Under the pieces are notes generated by a model. The model had not been told where the DNA came from and made no database searches. It was given only the letters and a program-made list of their open reading frames with translations. DNA of 64,000 nucleotides from Myxococcaceae bacterium JPH2 (lineage in GTDB: Bacteria; Myxococcota; Myxococcia; Myxococcales; Myxococcaceae), in the NCBI GenBank assembly GCA_016458225.1, contig JAEMGR010000001.1, positions 1 to 64,000 on the forward strand, given 5' to 3'. Shown here piece by piece: positions 16,122 to 25,509 of the stretch (its first letter is position 1; each line of letters starts with the position of its first letter). The position numbers were made by a program, and so were the translations under genes.

Positions 16122-16234
16122 GATGCGTACGGTGCACGCGCGCCCCCGTCACCACAATAAAGCCCACGGCGATGTTGCCCGGTGTCCTAGCTCAGGCGGG
16201 CACGCCCTCCGGGACGTGCGGCGCTTCCGCGAAC

Positions 16235-16246
16235 TGTACTAGTACA
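16235..16246. promoter_or_regulatory. Operator palindrome TGTACTAGTACA
   Basis: A perfect 12-bp palindrome 6 bp before the start of the GntR-TetR regulator and 113 bp from the divergent monooxygenase start. TGTAC-N-GTACA forms are typical of one-component repressors; it would allow autorepression and, less surely, control of the monooxygenase. Confidence 0.6.
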
Positions 16247-16252
16247 CATCTC

Positions 16253-17161
16253 ATGGGAATGGCCCCCTACCGACGCATCGTCGAAGACGTGAAGAGGCAG
16301 CTCCGCACCGGCGCACTCCAGCCTGGCGACCGGTTGCCGTCCACCCGGGAACTTGCTCGGCAGTGGAAGGTTGCGCTCGCGACGGCGGCACATGCCATGA
16401 GGGTGCTCGCGCAGGAGGGCATCGTGAGGGCTATGCCGCGTGTGGGCACTGTTGTCGCGGGCGGCTCCTCGCGGCAGGGTGCGGCGCGTGGCACGGCGGA
16501 GTCCACGCGCGAGCGAATCGTGCGCGCGGCGATCGCCATGGCGGATGACGAAGGCCTGCCAGCCCTTTCGATTCGTGGGGTCGCGTCGAAGCTGGGCCTG
16601 CCGGTGATGTCCCTCTACCGATACGTCGCCAGCAAGGACGTGCTGCTCGTGATGATGGCGGAGGCGGCGTTCTCGGAGGAGCCGTTGCCACGGGAGCCTC
16701 CGCCGGGCTGGCGCGCGCAGCTGGAACTGGCGGCCCGGTTGGAGTGGCGGATCTTCAAGCGCCACCCCTGGCTTGCGCGCGTGGTGAGCCTCACGCGCCC
16801 CCAGCCACAACCGGGGGCGCTCGCCTTCGCGGACTGGGTGATGCGCGCGCTCCTGGAGACGCGACTCCCGGCGCAGGAGATGGTGCGCATCCATGTGCTG
16901 CTCCACGCGTTCGTGCAGGGCATCGCGGTCAACCTCGAGTCCGAGGCCGACGCCCTTGCCCAGACGGGCATGAACGACGAGGAGTTCATGCGGCGGACCG
17001 AGCCCAGCTATCTCCGCTTCGCGACATCGGGGCGCTTCCCGCACTTCGCGAAGGTGCTCATCGACCTGCGAACGGGCTTCGACCTGGACTTCGATGAGCT
17101 GTTCGAGCTGGGCCTGCGCGTGTGTCTCGACGGCTTCGAAGCACGGCTCGCGCGGCGCTAG
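16253..17161 (+). CDS. GntR-TetR fusion transcriptional regulator
   Basis: 302 residues with two DNA-binding domains in tandem. Residues about 3-72 are a GntR winged helix (YRRIVEDVKRQLRTGALQ, PGDRLPSTRELARQW, MRVLAQEGIVRAMPRVGTVV). Residues about 83-135 are a TetR helix-turn-helix (RERIVRAAIAMADDEGLPA, then LSIRGVASKLGLPVMSLYRY). The rest is a TetR C-terminal ligand and dimer domain. I chose ATG 16253 just after the TGTACTAGTACA palindrome; MAPYRR at 16259 is an alternative. The divergent flavin monooxygenase is the likely target. Confidence 0.85.
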   Translation: MGMAPYRRIVEDVKRQLRTGALQPGDRLPSTRELARQWKVALATAAHAMRVLAQEGIVRAMPRVGTVVAGGSSRQGAARGTAESTRERIVRAAIAMADDEGLPALSIRGVASKLGLPVMSLYRYVASKDVLLVMMAEAAFSEEPLPREPPPGWRAQLELAARLEWRIFKRHPWLARVVSLTRPQPQPGALAFADWVMRALLETRLPAQEMVRIHVLLHAFVQGIAVNLESEADALAQTGMNDEEFMRRTEPSYLRFATSGRFPHFAKVLIDLRTGFDLDFDELFELGLRVCLDGFEARLARR

Positions 17162-17254: not shown

Positions 17255-18556
17255 TCACTCGAAGAGCGAGAGTTCCGCGAGTGAAGTGGGCGCCGCCCCT
17301 TTTCCATTCCCTCCCTGCAGCGCCAGTCGGACGAAGCGGACCGAGCGGGGTCCAGACAGAGGAATGTCGAGGAAGTTCTGGCCGTATCTCTGGATGGGCG
17401 GGTCCCAGGGATTGTCTGCGTCGCTCGCGGTCCGAAAAGTGCGGCCATTCCCCTGCATTCCGTGCTGGAAGGCGAGAGTCCGTTGAGCGAGTTCGTCCCA
17501 CTGCAATCCGTCCTCGCTGCCCTCGACGACGAGCTTCGTCCCGAAAGTCTCCAGATTGCGGATGACCACGCGTGAGATGAGCGCGGGCGCGCCGAGGTCG
17601 ACGCCGAGCTTCAGGGGATGGGTCGCGGGATCGTTGTCAGGCCACAGCTCGGAGACCTCCCGTCGCAGAAACACTCCATCCGTGAAGGGACACGGCCCGT
17701 CGAGCGTCGGATAGCACCGGGCGCCCCGGCTCAGGGGCCGCAGCGTTCCTGCCGGAAGGGAGAGCCGCTCGCTGCGCCACTCGAGCCGGAAGACGAGCCA
17801 GGCTTCGTGGCTCACCAGTGGCGCCCGCCGCCAGGCGCCCGCGCTCACCATCCGCACCTGCGCCTGCGGAGAGGCCTCGTCCTCGATGAGCCACGGGAAC
17901 AAGACCCGAGGAGAAGTGACCTCGGGCTCGTCCCAGAGCAGTCCCCCTCCCCCGTGGAGCTGCCACGTGGAGACGGGAATCAGCGGAGACTGTCGGTCGC
18001 GACTGGGGGCTCCAGATTGTGGTGGTTCCGGCTCGTCGTTCGCCACCACGCCCATGGGCACCTGCGGTGTGGGTGGGGGCGGGGCAAAGGTCAGCATGGG
18101 GCCGGTGGGCCCCTCTTCCATCGCAAGCTGCGCGTCCCAGATGCGCATCACAGGAAGCTCGGTGTCGCCCCCGTTGCTCGACGTGAACGAGAGGAAGGCC
18201 CCCCGGTCGTTCTCGAGCGGTGTCGCGACCCGGAAGCGCTCGCGATACGTCGGACGGGGGCTGAGGTACCTTGTGTCCATGTGCTGCACGAGGTCGCCCG
18301 CGAGGATCTCCAGCGCGAAGGCCCCATTGGCTTGCGTGGTCACGGCTCCATAGGGCGTGTAGTTCATCACGTCCCGGAAGCGGCCCTGCGGATCGACGCT
18401 CAGCCCGCCCTCCAACACGAGGTCTGTCTGACTGAAGGGCGAGCCGTCTCCCCGGAGGGCCATGCTGTAGAGGAAGAGTGGCGAGTCCTCGAAAGGCTCA
18501 CAGCCTGTGCTGCACAGGGCTGTCAGGACGAGCCCAGGCCAAAGGAAGGTGCGCAT
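17255..18556 (-). CDS. Lipoprotein with C-terminal discoidin-like domain
   Basis: 433 residues. A lipoprotein signal ends in LCSTGC, with the modified Cys at residue 19. The middle is low in recognisable motifs, with a Pro-rich linker around residue 160-170. The last 130 residues resemble an F5/8 type C (discoidin) sandwich: LKLGVDLGAPALISRVVIRN, VVEGSEDGLQWDELAQRT and VRFVRLALQGGNG. Such domains bind sugars or surfaces. It starts 1 nt after the stop of the TonB-dependent receptor gene, so it is translationally linked to it and may be a surface subunit of that receptor, as in SusD-like pairs, although it is not SusD. Confidence 0.75.
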   Translation of the reverse strand: MRTFLWPGLVLTALCSTGCEPFEDSPLFLYSMALRGDGSPFSQTDLVLEGGLSVDPQGRFRDVMNYTPYGAVTTQANGAFALEILAGDLVQHMDTRYLSPRPTYRERFRVATPLENDRGAFLSFTSSNGGDTELPVMRIWDAQLAMEEGPTGPMLTFAPPPPTPQVPMGVVANDEPEPPQSGAPSRDRQSPLIPVSTWQLHGGGGLLWDEPEVTSPRVLFPWLIEDEASPQAQVRMVSAGAWRRAPLVSHEAWLVFRLEWRSERLSLPAGTLRPLSRGARCYPTLDGPCPFTDGVFLRREVSELWPDNDPATHPLKLGVDLGAPALISRVVIRNLETFGTKLVVEGSEDGLQWDELAQRTLAFQHGMQGNGRTFRTASDADNPWDPPIQRYGQNFLDIPLSGPRSVRFVRLALQGGNGKGAAPTSLAELSLFE

Positions 18557-18557
18557 G

Positions 18558-21317
18558 TCAGTAAGTCCCTTTCAGGCCGAGCATGGGAAGAACGACGGGC
18601 ACCCCCTGCCCCGTTCGGCGAAGCGCGGAGGATGTGGTGGAGTACTCGAAGAAGACGACCTCCTTCTGGACGGAGGCATTGAGCAGATCCAGCGAGAGCT
18701 CGAGCATGAAGTCATCCATGGCCCAGGCCTTGGATGCGCGCAGGTCCACGCGCCAGAAGGAAGGAAGGCGCGCGGCCTGGTCCCTGTCCTGGCGCACCCA
18801 TCTGGGATTGCCCCTCGAATCCTCGGAGGGGCGCATGGGCGGAGGGGTGAGGTCGCCCGTTTCGGGCCGGCCGGTGTTGAAGTGCAAGACCGCCCCGACC
18901 GTGAAGCCATGGCCGAGCTTGCGACTGACGGCCGCGTTGAAGACGTGCTCCTGCTCGAAGGCGAAGGGCACGGTCGCCAGGACCGTGTCCGCGCGTTGAT
19001 TCTGGTCATCGAAGCGCTGGATGCGCAGCCGTCGTCGGCTCTGGAGGAAGCTGTAGGACGCCCAGCCAAACCAGTCGTTGCCGAGCGGGTGGCGGACCTG
19101 CAATTCCAGACCGTAGGCTTCGCCTGACGCGGCTGGGTCAGAGCCAGCGAGGCCGCCTCGGCGGCGCCCCTCGAGGAGTTGCTGGATGTCGAACTCCACC
19201 GTTCGGAGCAAGGGATTGTAGAAGGCGTCGGCGCTCAGATCCCAGGCTTCATGGGGTTTCCACTCGGCGCCCACGTCAAGCTGGATTCCCTCCTGCAAGC
19301 CATAGCGAAGGCCATTCGTGTCCATCGCCGGGAGTTGAAGGAGGACGGTGGGCGCTTGGTGGAAGAGGCCCGCCCCGCCCTTGACCACGAGCGTCTGGGT
19401 CAAGGCGTGACGCACCGTCAACCGGGGCTCGAGTGTCGTGTGGGTACTGACCTGGAACAGGTGATAGGAATCCGCACGGCCCCCGGCGACGACGAGCCAA
19501 CGAGGCGAGGGGCGCCATTGCAGCTCGACGAAGGCTCCGCCCATGTTTGCCTTTGAGCTGGGACGCGTGAGGGGATCGTCATCGGAGAAGTACTGGGAGC
19601 CAGCGGGTGCGCCATCGCCGGTGGCGACAACGGTCGCCCGGCGGTGCTCCAGGTCACCGCCCACGGTGAGCTGAAGCGTCTGGCCCCAGGCGCGAGTCCA
19701 ACGGAGCCGTCCCGAGAGGCTCTTCTCCTGGAGCCGGAACTCCCCCAGCACGACGCGCGGAGGCCCTCGCTCGGTGCCAAAACCCTGGTCGTCCACGCCC
19801 GCGGTGAGGCCCAGCTCCAGGTTTCCCTCCGCGAGCGGGTGGGTGCCACGAAGATCCACCCGGTGGAAGCGGGTGACGAGGCTCACGCCGTTCGAAGCCA
19901 CCCCTCGAAGCAGGCCATCTGGGCTCTCGAACAACGCTTCGGGGGAGTGCTCCGCCAGGGCATCGGAGCTGCCGAGTGCCAGCAGGCGCAGCGTGCCCTT
20001 TCCCACCTTCTGGTCGATGCGGGCCTGATAGTCCCAGAACTCCGAGCGGATCCGCGGCGCGTCATCGGTCGACAGGGCGTTGACCACGAGCGAGCCGAGC
20101 AGCCCGGAGTAGCTCATCCGGCCCGCCACGCTGACGGAGGTTCCCGTGGAGGGAAGAGGAACCTCCAGGAAGACGCCACTGTTGATGACATCCAGGGTGA
20201 CCGCTGCGTGGATCCTGTCCTCGCGCGGCCGGGAGATGCGGCCCTCGACGACACTTCCGAGCAGGCGGCCGTACTGAACGGGCGGCGCGCCCGGAAAGAA
20301 GTCGAGGGTCTCGATGAACTCGGGCTGGATGACGGCTGGCCCCAGCAGCAGGTGATACAGCATGGGGATGCGGACCCCATCGACGTAGAAGCCGGTGGAC
20401 GCGGGCTGACCTCCTCGAACGACGGGATAGCCGAGGCCCGACGCGAGACTTCCAACCCCTGGCATCAGCATGACGACGCGGAAGGGATCGCCTTGCGTCC
20501 CAGGCACCTCGCGAATCTCCTGCTCATGGAGGCTGATGCGCGTCACCTCGGCGCGAGGGCGTTCGTCTCTCACGACCGTCTCGTAAGGGTTCACCCGCAG
20601 GGGCTCGAGGCGATAGATGACCTGGAGCTGCTGCCCCTCGGTGAGGGACTCCTCGAAGGTGGCGGGTTCGTAGCCAGGGGCGTGCACCTGGATGGAATGG
20701 GAGCCAGCCGGGAGGGACAGCACGAAGTGGCCTTCGGCATCGGGGAAGATGGCTTGCGTCTGCCCGTCGACGGTGAGAGCTGCGTCCGCGAGGGGGCGAC
20801 GCGTGCCCTTGGCCCTGACGAAGCCCGAGACCTGCGTCGTCGCATGCTCCTCCACGGCCGGAGGCGTGAAGACGTAGGCGAAGCGGATCCGCGCCGCCAC
20901 GGGCGCATCGCGCAAGGTCGCAGGAGTGAAGCGCAACCCCCAGGCGGCCTGGACGGCCGCGTCCGTGAAGCGCGAGTCCGCGCTCTCCGCCACCTTCACT
21001 TCGGACACCCCGCCCTGCTCGTCGATCAGCAGCTCGAGGGTGACGACGGCCGTCGTGTTCTCGAGTCCCTTGGGAACGGTGGCCGGGGAGTCGGTGAGCC
21101 GCGTGGGCGGAACGAGTTCGGAGCTGTCCCCATCGCCGGTGAACCCGCGCGCAGGGACAGCGCCCTGGACACGCAGTCCCCCGTCAGCGGACTGGACGTC
21201 GAGTTCAAGGACCCGAAGCTCCTCGGGGGGCGCGCCTTGCGCCAGGGCGGGCGCTGCCGCCAGGAATATCCAGAGCGCGACCAGTTTCCCAGTCGGGTGA
21301 GACGACAGTCGAGACAT
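18558..21317 (-). CDS. TonB-dependent outer-membrane receptor with N-terminal TonB_C domain
   Basis: 919 residues. Start ATG 21317 follows GGGGAG and opens a signal peptide (1-27). Order of domains: a TonB C-terminal-like domain at about 80-152 (VVTLELLIDEQGGVSEVKVA, FTPATLRDAPVAARIRFAYV), a carboxypeptidase-regulatory beta-sandwich at about 162-237, a plug (YPVVRGGQPASTGFYVDGVR) from about 270, and a 22-strand-type barrel to the C-terminal aromatic (LGLKGTY). TonB_C normally belongs to the energising protein, not the receptor, so it may act as a docking or regulatory module. It is co-transcribed with the discoidin-like lipoprotein and divergent from an ECF sigma operon, the usual layout for surface-signalled uptake. 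Confidence 0.85.
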   Translation of the reverse strand: MSRLSSHPTGKLVALWIFLAAAPALAQGAPPEELRVLELDVQSADGGLRVQGAVPARGFTGDGDSSELVPPTRLTDSPATVPKGLENTTAVVTLELLIDEQGGVSEVKVAESADSRFTDAAVQAAWGLRFTPATLRDAPVAARIRFAYVFTPPAVEEHATTQVSGFVRAKGTRRPLADAALTVDGQTQAIFPDAEGHFVLSLPAGSHSIQVHAPGYEPATFEESLTEGQQLQVIYRLEPLRVNPYETVVRDERPRAEVTRISLHEQEIREVPGTQGDPFRVVMLMPGVGSLASGLGYPVVRGGQPASTGFYVDGVRIPMLYHLLLGPAVIQPEFIETLDFFPGAPPVQYGRLLGSVVEGRISRPREDRIHAAVTLDVINSGVFLEVPLPSTGTSVSVAGRMSYSGLLGSLVVNALSTDDAPRIRSEFWDYQARIDQKVGKGTLRLLALGSSDALAEHSPEALFESPDGLLRGVASNGVSLVTRFHRVDLRGTHPLAEGNLELGLTAGVDDQGFGTERGPPRVVLGEFRLQEKSLSGRLRWTRAWGQTLQLTVGGDLEHRRATVVATGDGAPAGSQYFSDDDPLTRPSSKANMGGAFVELQWRPSPRWLVVAGGRADSYHLFQVSTHTTLEPRLTVRHALTQTLVVKGGAGLFHQAPTVLLQLPAMDTNGLRYGLQEGIQLDVGAEWKPHEAWDLSADAFYNPLLRTVEFDIQQLLEGRRRGGLAGSDPAASGEAYGLELQVRHPLGNDWFGWASYSFLQSRRRLRIQRFDDQNQRADTVLATVPFAFEQEHVFNAAVSRKLGHGFTVGAVLHFNTGRPETGDLTPPPMRPSEDSRGNPRWVRQDRDQAARLPSFWRVDLRASKAWAMDDFMLELSLDLLNASVQKEVVFFEYSTTSSALRRTGQGVPVVLPMLGLKGTY

Positions 21318-21525
21318 GCACTCCCCTGTTCCCGGCGCGAAGCGAAATGGACGGCGGGGCCCCCGGGATTGGCGGGGACGCTCCCGGCAGGTCGGAAGGG
21401 GGAACGGTGTGAGGCCTCGCATCCGGCCACGGTCTCGGCCAGATTGCCCTCGCACGATTTCCTGTCCGCTTTTCTGGGGCCCAGTCGTTTCCTTCCCGCG
21501 CATCCATCTGGAGCACCCCCGAGCC

Positions 21526-22008
21526 GTGGCCACCGACATTCAGAGCGCCTACCTGCGCTACTTCCCGTTCATCCGGGAGAAGTGCCGCCGGATGCTGGGC
21601 GACTCCGACGAGGCACAGGACGTGGCGCAAGAGACCTTCATCCGGTTGTGGAAATCGAGGCTTCAGACCCATGACCCGCGCCAGGCGACCGCGTGGATCT
21701 ACCGGACCAGCACGAACCTCGCGGTGGACAGGCTCCGCCAGCGCCGGAGCGCGCCCATGCGCGAGTCCGCATCCCTGACAGAAGTCCCCGACAGGCGCTC
21801 CACGGAAGCCATGCTCCAGCAGCGCCAGGAGCTCCAATCACTGGCAATGCACCTGCCCCCTGATGTGCTGGAGGTGGCGTTGATGAACCGACTGGATGGC
21901 CTGACCCAACAGGAGATTGCCGACGTGCTCCAGGTGTCCGAGCGAACGGTGCGGCGGCTCCTCCAGAGACTCGACGAACAGGTAGAGCAGTTGAGGAGGA
22001 CCCTCTGA
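21526..22008 (+). CDS. ECF-type RNA polymerase sigma factor
   Basis: 160 residues from GTG 21526. Region 2 (YLRYFPFIREKCRRMLGDSD, EAQDVAQETFIRLWKSR, ATAWIYRTSTNLAVDRLRQR) and region 4 (LPPDVLEVALMNRLDGLTQQ, EIADVLQVSERTVRRLLQRL) are both complete. The frame is open upstream to 21316 but that part opposes the receptor promoter and has no sigma similarity. The next gene, 2 nt away, encodes a zinc-type anti-sigma factor, so activity is probably set at the membrane. The divergent receptor operon is a likely target. Confidence 0.9.
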   Translation: MATDIQSAYLRYFPFIREKCRRMLGDSDEAQDVAQETFIRLWKSRLQTHDPRQATAWIYRTSTNLAVDRLRQRRSAPMRESASLTEVPDRRSTEAMLQQRQELQSLAMHLPPDVLEVALMNRLDGLTQQEIADVLQVSERTVRRLLQRLDEQVEQLRRTL

Positions 22009-22010
22009 AC

Positions 22011-22700
22011 ATGACCGCCCCCCCCGGACATCCCTCCTTTCTCGAGCTGGATCGCGCGGCGCTTGGACTGCGGAGCCCTTCTCTGGAACAGCACCTCGAG
22101 ACCTGCACCGGGTGCCGCGCCTATCTGAGCCGGGTGAAACAATCAGAGCCCGTGCCCGCGTGGGCACGAGCGCTCGACACCGACCGCAGGGCGGACGAGC
22201 GGGTCGCGTGGACCCGCTGGGCGTGGCCCCTGCTTGCCACCGCCGCGCTGGTTGCGGGGCTGTACGTGATCATCCCAGGCCACTTGAGCGAAGCGGCACC
22301 GACCTTCGTGGCGACCAAGGGCGCCCCCGCTGTCGCCGTCTACATCAAGCGTGGCGAGCAGGTCTTCCTCTGGGATGGCCAGGCCCCCCTGGCGCCGGAT
22401 GACCGACTCCAGCTCCAGGTCGTCGCGGGGGAGCACCATCACATCACCGTGGCGGTGCAGGCGCCGGAAGGACCTGAAGCATGGACTGTGCTCTATGAGG
22501 GTCCCGTCTCGCCTGGTCAGGAAATGGCCGTGCCCATGAGCTTGCGAGTGGACGCCACCGAGGGCGAGGAGCGCATTCGCCTCCTCTTCAGCGAAGAGGC
22601 GTTGCCCGAGCCTCAGGCCGTTGAACATCTCTCGGAGGCGTCCACGACCGCGACGCTCTGGACCACCGAGCTTCGCTTCCGAAAGAGCACCCTTCGATGA
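22011..22700 (+). CDS. Transmembrane zinc-finger anti-sigma factor
   Basis: 229 residues. The cytoplasmic N-terminus has HLETCTGC (His28, Cys32, Cys35), the H-x3-C-x2-C signature of zinc-binding anti-sigma domains. One membrane span lies at about 68-90 (WAWPLLATAALVAGLYVI). The periplasmic part, about 90-229, is a beta-rich domain not recognised, with KGAPAVAVYIKRGEQVFLWD. It sits 2 nt after the sigma gene and overlaps the caspase gene start by 4 nt (ATGA), so the three form one operon. It should hold the sigma factor inactive until an envelope signal arrives. Confidence 0.85.
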   Translation: MTAPPGHPSFLELDRAALGLRSPSLEQHLETCTGCRAYLSRVKQSEPVPAWARALDTDRRADERVAWTRWAWPLLATAALVAGLYVIIPGHLSEAAPTFVATKGAPAVAVYIKRGEQVFLWDGQAPLAPDDRLQLQVVAGEHHHITVAVQAPEGPEAWTVLYEGPVSPGQEMAVPMSLRVDATEGEERIRLLFSEEALPEPQAVEHLSEASTTATLWTTELRFRKSTLR

Positions 22701-24337
22701 ATGGACTGACGAGCATGTGTCGTGTCCTCCTCCTGGTCTCGTGGCTGGGCGCCGCCCTCGCCTGGGCCCAGCCGGCGTCTGTCATTCCGCCCGCGCCGAA
22801 GCGGATGGCGGTGGTGGTGGGCTCCAACTCAGCGGTGCTCGGCCGGACCGCCCTGCGCTATGCGCACGTGGACGCTCGGCAGATGGCGGACGTCCTCATC
22901 CAGGTGGGCGAGTTCCAACCCGGAGATGTCGAGCTGTTGCTCGACCCGGCGCCCGAGGCCATCCTGGCCGCGCTCGACCAGAAGCTTCGGCGCCTGCGCG
23001 CGACGCCCGGGCCGACGCTGCTGCTCTTCTACTATTCAGGCCATGCGGACCAGCAGGCCCTGTACCCCCACGGAGAACCCCTCGAGCTGGCCGCGCTGAA
23101 GCAGCGCATCGAGAGCCCCGACGCCACGGTGCGCCTGGGCATCATTGACGCGTGTCGTGGCGGTGGCTGGACGCAGACGAAGGGCCTCCACGCGGACGCG
23201 CCGTTCGAACTCGCGGATCCGCTCCACGTCCAGAGCGAGGGCTCGGTGCTCATCGCCTCCAGCTCCGGCTTGGAGAATGCCCATGAGGCGGCGGCCGTGG
23301 AGGGTTCGTTCTTCACCCACCACTTCGTCGCGGGACTGCGAGGTGCCGCCGACGTCGCCGGAGATGGGGAGGTGTCGATGCTCGAGGCCTTCACCTATGC
23401 GAAGCAGCTCACGATTCGAGACACGGCGGTGTTCGCGGACCAGCCGCAGCACCCGAGCTTCGACCTGAACCTGCGGGGCCGCGACGACCTGTCGCTCACC
23501 CGCGTGGCGACGGGTGGAAGCGTCGTGGTGTTGCGCCAGCGTCGGGGGCCGCTGCAGGTGGTGCAGGCATCAGAGGGCCTGAGCGTGCTCGAGCTGCCCG
23601 CGGGGGAGCGGGAGGTGAAGGTCGCGCTCCGCCCAGGACGCTATGTCCTGATCCGCAAGGTCCCGGACGGCCCGGTCGCTCTCGAGTTCAACGTCCAGGC
23701 CGAGCAATCACTCCTCATCGAGGAGGAGTCCCTGGTACCGGCGAGCTTTGCCTCCATCACGGCGAAGGGGCCTGAGGCCAACGGGTCGTCTCCGCCGAAC
23801 AACGCGGACCGGCTGCTGACGACGAATCTGCTGTCTCTCGCTTTCGGTGCGGCCGTTCAGTTCGAGTATGCACAGGCGCTCTCCCCAGCATGGATGCTCA
23901 CTGTCACACCATCACTTTCGGCTGGCTCGGAGCCAATAGCTCCGGCGGGCTCGGATGACTGGGCTTGGGCTGGCTCGGTGAAGAGAATCAGCCCAGGGCT
24001 GCAGGTGGGAGTCCGCTACCATCCCCACCAAAACGCACCTGCGGGCCTCTACGTCGGAGCACAGATGGGTGTGACGGCCGCGCTCCTGAGGCGGGACGAT
24101 GGCTCGATGAACAGGGACAAGAAGACATTCCTCTCGCTGCTCTCGAACGTCGACGTGGGCTACTCCTTTCTCTTCTGGAACCATGCTGCCTTGTCGCTTG
24201 GCATGGGTGTGGAAGGTGTCGTCGTGTCGCAATACGATGCCATGAGGCAGTTCCTCGTTCAGGCTGGCGTCGAACATCCATCCGGGCATGTGCTGTTCGG
24301 CCTCTACCCGAAGATCGCGGTCGGCGCCGCGTTCTGA
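22697..24337 (+). CDS. Exported caspase-family (C14) protein with C-terminal beta-barrel-like region
   Basis: 546 residues, signal peptide 1-24. Residues 36-260 form a p20 caspase domain with both catalytic residues, His116 in FYYSGHAD and Cys153 in IIDACRGGG. Residues about 262-360 are an unassigned beta-rich linker. The last 180 residues alternate hydrophobic and polar strands (AAVQFEYAQALSPAWMLTVT, LYVGAQMGVTAALL, NHAALSLGMGVEGVVV) and end in Phe (VGAAF), like a small outer-membrane barrel. Bacterial caspases cleave after Lys or Arg; export to the envelope is unusual. It is the third gene of the sigma/anti-sigma operon and could cleave the anti-sigma factor or an envelope partner. Confidence 0.85.
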   Translation: MNGLTSMCRVLLLVSWLGAALAWAQPASVIPPAPKRMAVVVGSNSAVLGRTALRYAHVDARQMADVLIQVGEFQPGDVELLLDPAPEAILAALDQKLRRLRATPGPTLLLFYYSGHADQQALYPHGEPLELAALKQRIESPDATVRLGIIDACRGGGWTQTKGLHADAPFELADPLHVQSEGSVLIASSSGLENAHEAAAVEGSFFTHHFVAGLRGAADVAGDGEVSMLEAFTYAKQLTIRDTAVFADQPQHPSFDLNLRGRDDLSLTRVATGGSVVVLRQRRGPLQVVQASEGLSVLELPAGEREVKVALRPGRYVLIRKVPDGPVALEFNVQAEQSLLIEEESLVPASFASITAKGPEANGSSPPNNADRLLTTNLLSLAFGAAVQFEYAQALSPAWMLTVTPSLSAGSEPIAPAGSDDWAWAGSVKRISPGLQVGVRYHPHQNAPAGLYVGAQMGVTAALLRRDDGSMNRDKKTFLSLLSNVDVGYSFLFWNHAALSLGMGVEGVVVSQYDAMRQFLVQAGVEHPSGHVLFGLYPKIAVGAAF

Positions 24338-25473: not shown

Positions 25474-25509
25474 GAAGCCCGCCCTCGCGAAGTGAGTCAG
25501 GCGGGCTTC
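25474..25509. terminator. Shared hairpin between converging genes
   Basis: GAAGCCCGCC (25474-25483) pairs perfectly with GGCGGGCTTC (25500-25509) over a 16-nt loop. It follows the peptidase gene, and its right arm encodes the last codons (K-P-A) of the radical SAM gene on the other strand. Confidence 0.55.

Follow-up and report, generated by a model that had tools for sequence, protein, structure and literature searches.

A caspase-like protease encoded beside a sigma/anti-sigma pair and a TonB-dependent receptor operon in a myxobacterium: a possible envelope-signalling cassette

What does a bacterium do with a caspase? We know of no natural substrate for most bacterial caspase homologues. 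A locus of the soil predator Myxococcaceae bacterium JPH2 (GenBank assembly GCA_016458225.1; 9.0 Mb in 144 contigs, 99.6% complete) raises the question anew. We analysed a window of 64,000 nucleotides, positions 1 to 64,000 of contig JAEMGR010000001.1, in which two operons stand back to back, separated by 208 bp. The leftward one consists of a TonB-dependent receptor gene (TBDT) and a lipoprotein gene (LIPO), 1 nt apart. The rightward one comprises the genes of an extracytoplasmic function (ECF) sigma factor (SIG), after a 2-nt gap a membrane anti-sigma (ASIG) and, overlapping the latter by 4 nt, a caspase-like protease (CASP). These five open reading frames had been listed in a first-pass annotation made from the letters alone, and all of them are found at the positions, in the order and with the gaps and the overlap that it gave (Table 1). 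We here propose that they may constitute a self-contained envelope-signalling cassette, in which caspase-driven proteolysis of ASIG and a local positive feedback would have TBDT and LIPO as output. We rate the probability of this reading at about 0.5.

By its sequence, CASP is a metacaspase-like member of peptidase family C14, with a caspase fold and a His/Cys dyad. The Pfam Peptidase_C14 profile scores 52.6 bits (cut-off 21.4), and the dyad, His116 and Cys153, is invariant in 25 of 25 CASPs compared. So are Ser114, two residues before the His, Asp151, two before the Cys, and Asp59 at the start of helix 1. The AlphaFold model (mean predicted local distance difference test score, pLDDT, 85) shows a signal helix, the caspase domain (residues 31-272), a beta-sandwich (254-345) and eight C-terminal strands (372-545) that are typical of small outer-membrane barrels; the final Phe is present in all six close orthologues. 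The caspase domain superimposes on metacaspase 4 (6w8r) with a Z-score of 21.1 and a root mean square deviation of 2.9 over 208 residues, and Z is around 20 for many caspases. The “exported” caspase of the first-pass annotation thus has its signal peptide, but it is probably not simply exported, since the model adds the eight-stranded barrel.

SIG contains the Sigma70 regions 2 and 4 only (Sigma70_r2, 9e-15; Sigma70_r4_2, 1.5e-11) and is an ECF sigma factor according to NCBIfam TIGR02937 (79.6 bits, cut-off 42.9). ASIG has a plain and conserved HxxxCxxC zinc motif and a single transmembrane helix, and by motif and topology it qualifies as a zinc-type membrane anti-sigma, as first annotated; its match to the Pfam profile zf-HC2, however, stays below threshold.

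How common is this association? Within the order, 123 of 145 genomes contain a strong relative of the caspase, and a collection of named genomes contains relatives from Myxococcota, Fibrobacter and further bacteria. In 64 of the 70 named loci with enough upstream sequence the caspase gene is immediately preceded by SIG and ASIG, so that the caspase is mostly accompanied by the sigma pair, and not mainly found without it, a possibility the first-pass annotation had considered. The same holds for most of about 60 Myxococcales loci, often with ATGA overlaps. SIG-ASIG-CASP is an old operon. Further caspase relatives are encoded in the window genome itself, five at 35-37% identity plus a remote one; the copy on contig C3 (one of the five) and the remote one on C7 belong to clear SIG-ASIG-CASP operons, and a profile search revealed that the C8 copy is preceded by the genes of both partners and the C16 copy by an ASIG gene. 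The C7 operon (L010:6067-10182) continues directly with a lipoprotein containing a CarboxypepD_reg domain, another accessory partner of the remote caspase type. Operons of the C8 type (L101, L117, L110) have a second recurrent partner set: the gene of a protein of about 324 residues has a 4-nt overlap with the stop of the caspase gene, and a lipoprotein-like gene of about 326 residues precedes the sigma gene.

The remark in the first-pass annotation that it knew of no described system with this set was half right. Operons of sigma factors and metacaspases had been reported in 2012 by Asplund-Samuelsson (PMC3501461) for Myxococcus xanthus, where four of five metacaspases are so arranged, Anaeromyxobacter, Haliangium, Sorangium, Ralstonia and Fibrobacter. 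Those operons resemble ours in uniting a sigma-70 factor with a caspase homologue, and the taxa overlap; as far as that account of them goes, it makes no mention of an anti-sigma, DUF4384, a barrel anchor, a promoter or a TBDT-LIPO partner.

A clue to a candidate substrate comes from ASIG. The ASIGs have one transmembrane helix and mostly a C-terminal periplasmic tail of 120-165 residues. In the AlphaFold model (pLDDT 84.5) a helical N-terminal domain is followed by a long transmembrane helix, a linker of low confidence and an Ig-like periplasmic domain (residues 107-225), for which no solved homologue stood out in a fold search. DUF4384 (PF14326) matches 11 of 20 ASIG paralogues in full length, if only below threshold (best 7.3e-6). 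Because of the signal peptide of CASP and the topology of ASIG, the protease and this domain both face the periplasm. The 20 ASIGs are mostly only 20-30% identical, and apart from the start Met their only fully invariant residues are a Lys-Gly in the juxtamembrane linker, often within R-x-K-G. In another set of ASIGs the Lys position is occupied by K in 17 of 19 and by R in one. In the metacaspase TbMCA2, a Ser two residues before the His and an Asp two before the Cys are positions of the S1 pocket (PMC4357240). CASP has the same residues there, and Lys or Arg is therefore predicted at P1, a preference that fits the conserved K-G bond. Most likely, then, CASP would cleave ASIG from the periplasm. 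A partnership of caspases and DUF4384 is also hinted at by cyanobacteria, where this domain is fused to orthocaspases (23 of 473 proteins; PMC8283722). Among our loci no ASIG-CASP gene fusion was found; where caspase reading frames have a long extension at the N-terminus, as some do, it is an artefact of another frame.

Do the receptor and the lipoprotein belong to the same system? General conservation of all five genes in Myxococcota, for which the first-pass annotation proposed to search, is not supported: TBDT-LIPO stands divergently beside SIG-ASIG-CASP in only 6 of the 145 genomes. One is the window genome; the other five belong to a different genus, and two of these correspond to the named records of Myxococcus llanfairpwllgwyngyllgogerychwyrndrobwllllantysiliogogogochensis and Pyxidicoccus fallax. 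In these six, the idea of one unit finds support. Intact LIPO orthologues (53-60% identity) are found exactly in the genomes with close CASP orthologues (60-66% over the whole protein), and one more genome has a truncated LIPO remnant. The whole unit is seen at four other loci, that of P. fallax being split by contig ends over two contigs. The flanking genes are unrelated between loci, except for one gene common to two close loci. Pairwise identities of TBDT covary with those of LIPO, ASIG and CASP (Spearman 0.81-0.91), and less strongly with those of SIG, which is short. The sister species of the window genome lacks the unit; synteny between the two resumes only at window position 25483, everything to the left differs, and there is no clean empty site. 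Each of the two operons is common alone, and their adjacency could in principle be fortuitous. We consider this barely credible, since the junction is identical in six genomes with different flanks, the genes co-diverge and the promoters are paired at fixed spacing (see below). The data support the view that in these six genomes the five genes are one evolutionary unit.

The first-pass annotation had suggested looking for a shared ECF promoter motif in the intergenic region (21318-21525), and the alignment of the six loci contains one. Two opposed copies of TGKCCG-N16-YCGTT, one per operon, are present in each; the 16-nt spacer and the 33 nt between the elements are always kept, while the spacers inside the elements have diverged in sequence. 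The -10-like box of the reverse element lies 85 nt before the TBDT ATG, and the chance of finding such an element is about 3e-4 per locus, as estimated by dinucleotide shuffling. With up to 3 mismatches allowed, each of the six genomes contains the extended forward core (21461-21492; CCTGTCCGNTTTTN11TCGTTTCC) a single time, and their reversed control does not contain it; it is absent from the nine searched genomes without the five-gene unit. A relaxed search (3 mismatches in a 28-mer) yielded matches at or near the reversed-control background. None of 22 other TBDT-LIPO receptor starts scanned has the core element; one of the 22 (L147) is the TBDT of the cassette itself, truncated at a contig end, so that its upstream region is missing. 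In another genus, four more caspase operons have related copies ahead of SIG. Since the paired elements face both operons, one sigma factor probably drives both, and the five genes in the six genomes are probably one regulatory unit; SIG itself, we infer, reads the pair. A different site, close to TGTRCGNTTTTYC and followed by GTCGGAT, recurs in all six genomes searched (e.g., G000:C9:231356-231383); it looks like the promoter of another ECF sigma factor.

In the proposed cassette, ASIG would hold SIG at the inner membrane by means of its cytoplasmic zinc-motif domain, its transmembrane helix and its periplasmic DUF4384-type domain. CASP would reach the periplasm by export, and its own barrel would anchor it in the outer membrane. 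A change in the envelope would leave CASP unassembled, free it, activate it or enable it to reach the inner membrane, and it would cut the juxtamembrane linker of ASIG, with the bond between Lys103 and Gly104 as the most likely site. Ordinary intramembrane proteolysis would then release SIG, which would transcribe both operons from the paired promoters. SIG-ASIG-CASP would thereby amplify itself, and TBDT-LIPO, presumably an uptake pair, would be made on demand. A narrower version makes the outer-membrane-anchored CASP itself the sensor: the barrel would couple the position of the protease to outer-membrane assembly, and unassembled or displaced CASP would cut ASIG at the K-G bond and thus release a private sigma factor with the two cassette operons as its sole strong targets. 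We regard this version as doubtful.

The main rival takes CASP as just a target gene. For stress sensing, SIG and ASIG would depend on the usual proteases of the RseP/DegS-like kind, CASP would be the main product, an envelope protease for lysis, development or predation, and the receptor pair a second target. ECF operons indeed often carry their target, the promoter pair indicates shared control, and developmental lysis is a role that has been proposed for myxobacterial metacaspases (PMC3501461). Three observations speak against it: one type of ASIG tightly paired with CASP over several phyla, DUF4384 common to ASIG and to caspase fusions, and the match between the S1 residues and the K-G bond. 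We therefore consider this rival unlikely, yet it has to be taken seriously.

Several points weigh against the cassette. The six loci are related, and their conservation counts are not independent events. Most SIG-ASIG-CASP operons have no TBDT-LIPO neighbour. The DUF4384 match of the window ASIG itself (0.15) is below the cut-off. A DUF4384-type ASIG-like protein of the same genome (L025:1366-2136) has the K-G linker without a neighbouring caspase; the K-G may thus be structural, or cut in trans. The barrel of CASP is a model only; the fold searches, filled by matches to the caspase domain, gave no match to a solved barrel. Among CASP paralogues the C-terminal sequence varies, and only about one third end in an aromatic residue. 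Finally, an anchor in the outer membrane makes the access of CASP to ASIG in the inner membrane a question of distance.

The receptor could also be the input rather than the output. As in FecA/FecR/FecI, a TonB-dependent receptor adjoins a sigma/anti-sigma pair, and a ligand-loaded TBDT might signal to ASIG through its N-terminal extension, with CASP only removing or trimming ASIG or a captured protein. According to Pfam, TBDT is composed of TonB_C, CarboxypepD_reg, plug and barrel, the TonB_C-like domain being N-terminal (residues 88-150). The window genome further contains, on contig C5 (L015:6123-14140), an ExbB-ExbD-TonB-TBDT-lipoprotein-CASP operon that recurs in other Myxococcaceae, a second linkage of caspase, TBDT and lipoprotein; its caspase is another of the five relatives mentioned above. 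In contrast to the Fec system, however, the Pfam searches revealed neither an STN domain on TBDT nor a FecR domain on ASIG. All of the 22 tested relatives of TBDT-LIPO have this N-terminal domain, and nearly all of these lack a caspase; most SIG-ASIG-CASP operons do without a TBDT. The first-pass idea of the receptor as signal input thus finds no specific support, and we judge Fec-like signalling improbable.

The receptor pair is, in fact, common outside the clade with the five-gene unit, and the relatives fetched there adjoin no caspase. LIPO has a lipobox-like Cys19, invariant across six orthologues. The first-pass annotation called it discoidin-like; the lipoprotein gene stands, whereas the C-terminal F5_F8_type_C match remains below the Pfam cut-off (22.4 versus 28.2 bits, E = 1.5e-4). 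These weak F5/8 matches were the only ones, and nothing identified LIPO as the SusD/RagB lipoprotein of a SusC/SusD pair. In other Myxococcaceae the pair is also duplicated in tandem (L157, L158, L160).

Might TBDT export or handle CASP, as Oar does with PopC in M. xanthus (PMC6434023)? This myxobacterial precedent of receptor-dependent protease secretion, together with a caspase-TBDT linkage in two arrangements, speaks for it. PopC, however, is no caspase, and CASP brings a signal peptide of its own; its predicted integral barrel ends in Phe, so that insertion by the beta-barrel assembly machinery would be expected, not secretion. Export by TBDT is thus very improbable. Judged from order and position, the C5 operon probably has its orthologue in M. 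xanthus in the TonB-TBDT cluster MXAN_0820/0821, the receptor of which was reported to be undeletable (PMC6434023). No sigma pair was found in the C5 operon, which sets it apart from the cassette; the C-terminus of its caspase paralogue matches surface-protein families.

The cassette reading has two further relatives. In type III-E CRISPR systems Csx29, a TPR-CHAT protease, cleaves Csx30, the inhibitor of CASP-sigma, in the cytoplasm (PMC10028731). There, as proposed here, a caspase-like protease acts on the inhibitor of an ECF sigma factor. Csx29, however, is a cytoplasmic, RNA-triggered CHAT protease, whereas CASP is not of the TPR-CHAT type but a periplasmic Peptidase_C14 protein with a signal peptide, and it would act on a membrane anti-sigma without any CRISPR parts. 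With the RseA/DegS/RseP pathway of sigma-E the cassette would share the membrane anti-sigma, a periplasmic site-1 cleavage and an envelope signal; in place of a PDZ serine protease, a caspase anchored in the outer membrane would cut at site 1.

Why does it matter? The operon pairs a periplasmic caspase with one type of anti-sigma, a candidate bond and two candidate promoters, which makes the role of a bacterial caspase directly testable; it would be among the first concrete, testable jobs for such an enzyme. If the cassette reading is true, caspases are also signalling proteases, beyond cell death, and the cassette is a compact, transferable, self-regulating receptor module. If CASP should even be the sensor, there would be a caspase-based pathway of regulated proteolysis across the Gram-negative envelope.

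Table 1. Features of the locus in window coordinates
Feature	Position	Strand	Basis
LIPO, lipoprotein, putative surface/periplasmic	17255..18556	-	lipobox-like Cys19, weak C-terminal F5/8 domain
TBDT, TonB-dependent receptor	18558..21317	-	TonB_C-like, CarboxypepD_reg, plug, barrel
ECF-type promoter-like element TGGCCG-N16-CCGTT, facing TBDT-LIPO	21403..21429	-	intergenic alignment, 6/6 loci
ECF-type promoter-like element TGTCCG-N16-TCGTT, facing SIG-ASIG-CASP	21463..21489	+	intergenic alignment, 6/6 loci
SIG, ECF sigma factor, GTG start	21526..22008	+	Sigma70_r2, Sigma70_r4_2, TIGR02937
ASIG, membrane anti-sigma	22011..22700	+	HxxxCxxC, one transmembrane helix, DUF4384-type periplasmic domain
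ASIG Lys103-Gly104 codons, candidate cleavage site	22317..22322	+	near-invariant juxtamembrane K-G
CASP, caspase-like protease	22697..24337	+	signal peptide, Peptidase_C14, beta-sandwich, predicted C-terminal beta-barrel
CASP catalytic His116 codon (YSGHAD)	23042..23044	+	invariant 25/25
CASP catalytic Cys153 codon (DACRGG)	23153..23155	+	invariant 25/25
CASP C-terminal outer-membrane-type barrel, 8 predicted strands, final Phe	23810..24334	+	model

To the left of the two operons, at 16172-17161, the window encodes a regulator that combines, as a fusion, a GntR helix-turn-helix with the N- and C-terminal domains of TetR; its gene is divergent from a FAD monooxygenase-like gene.

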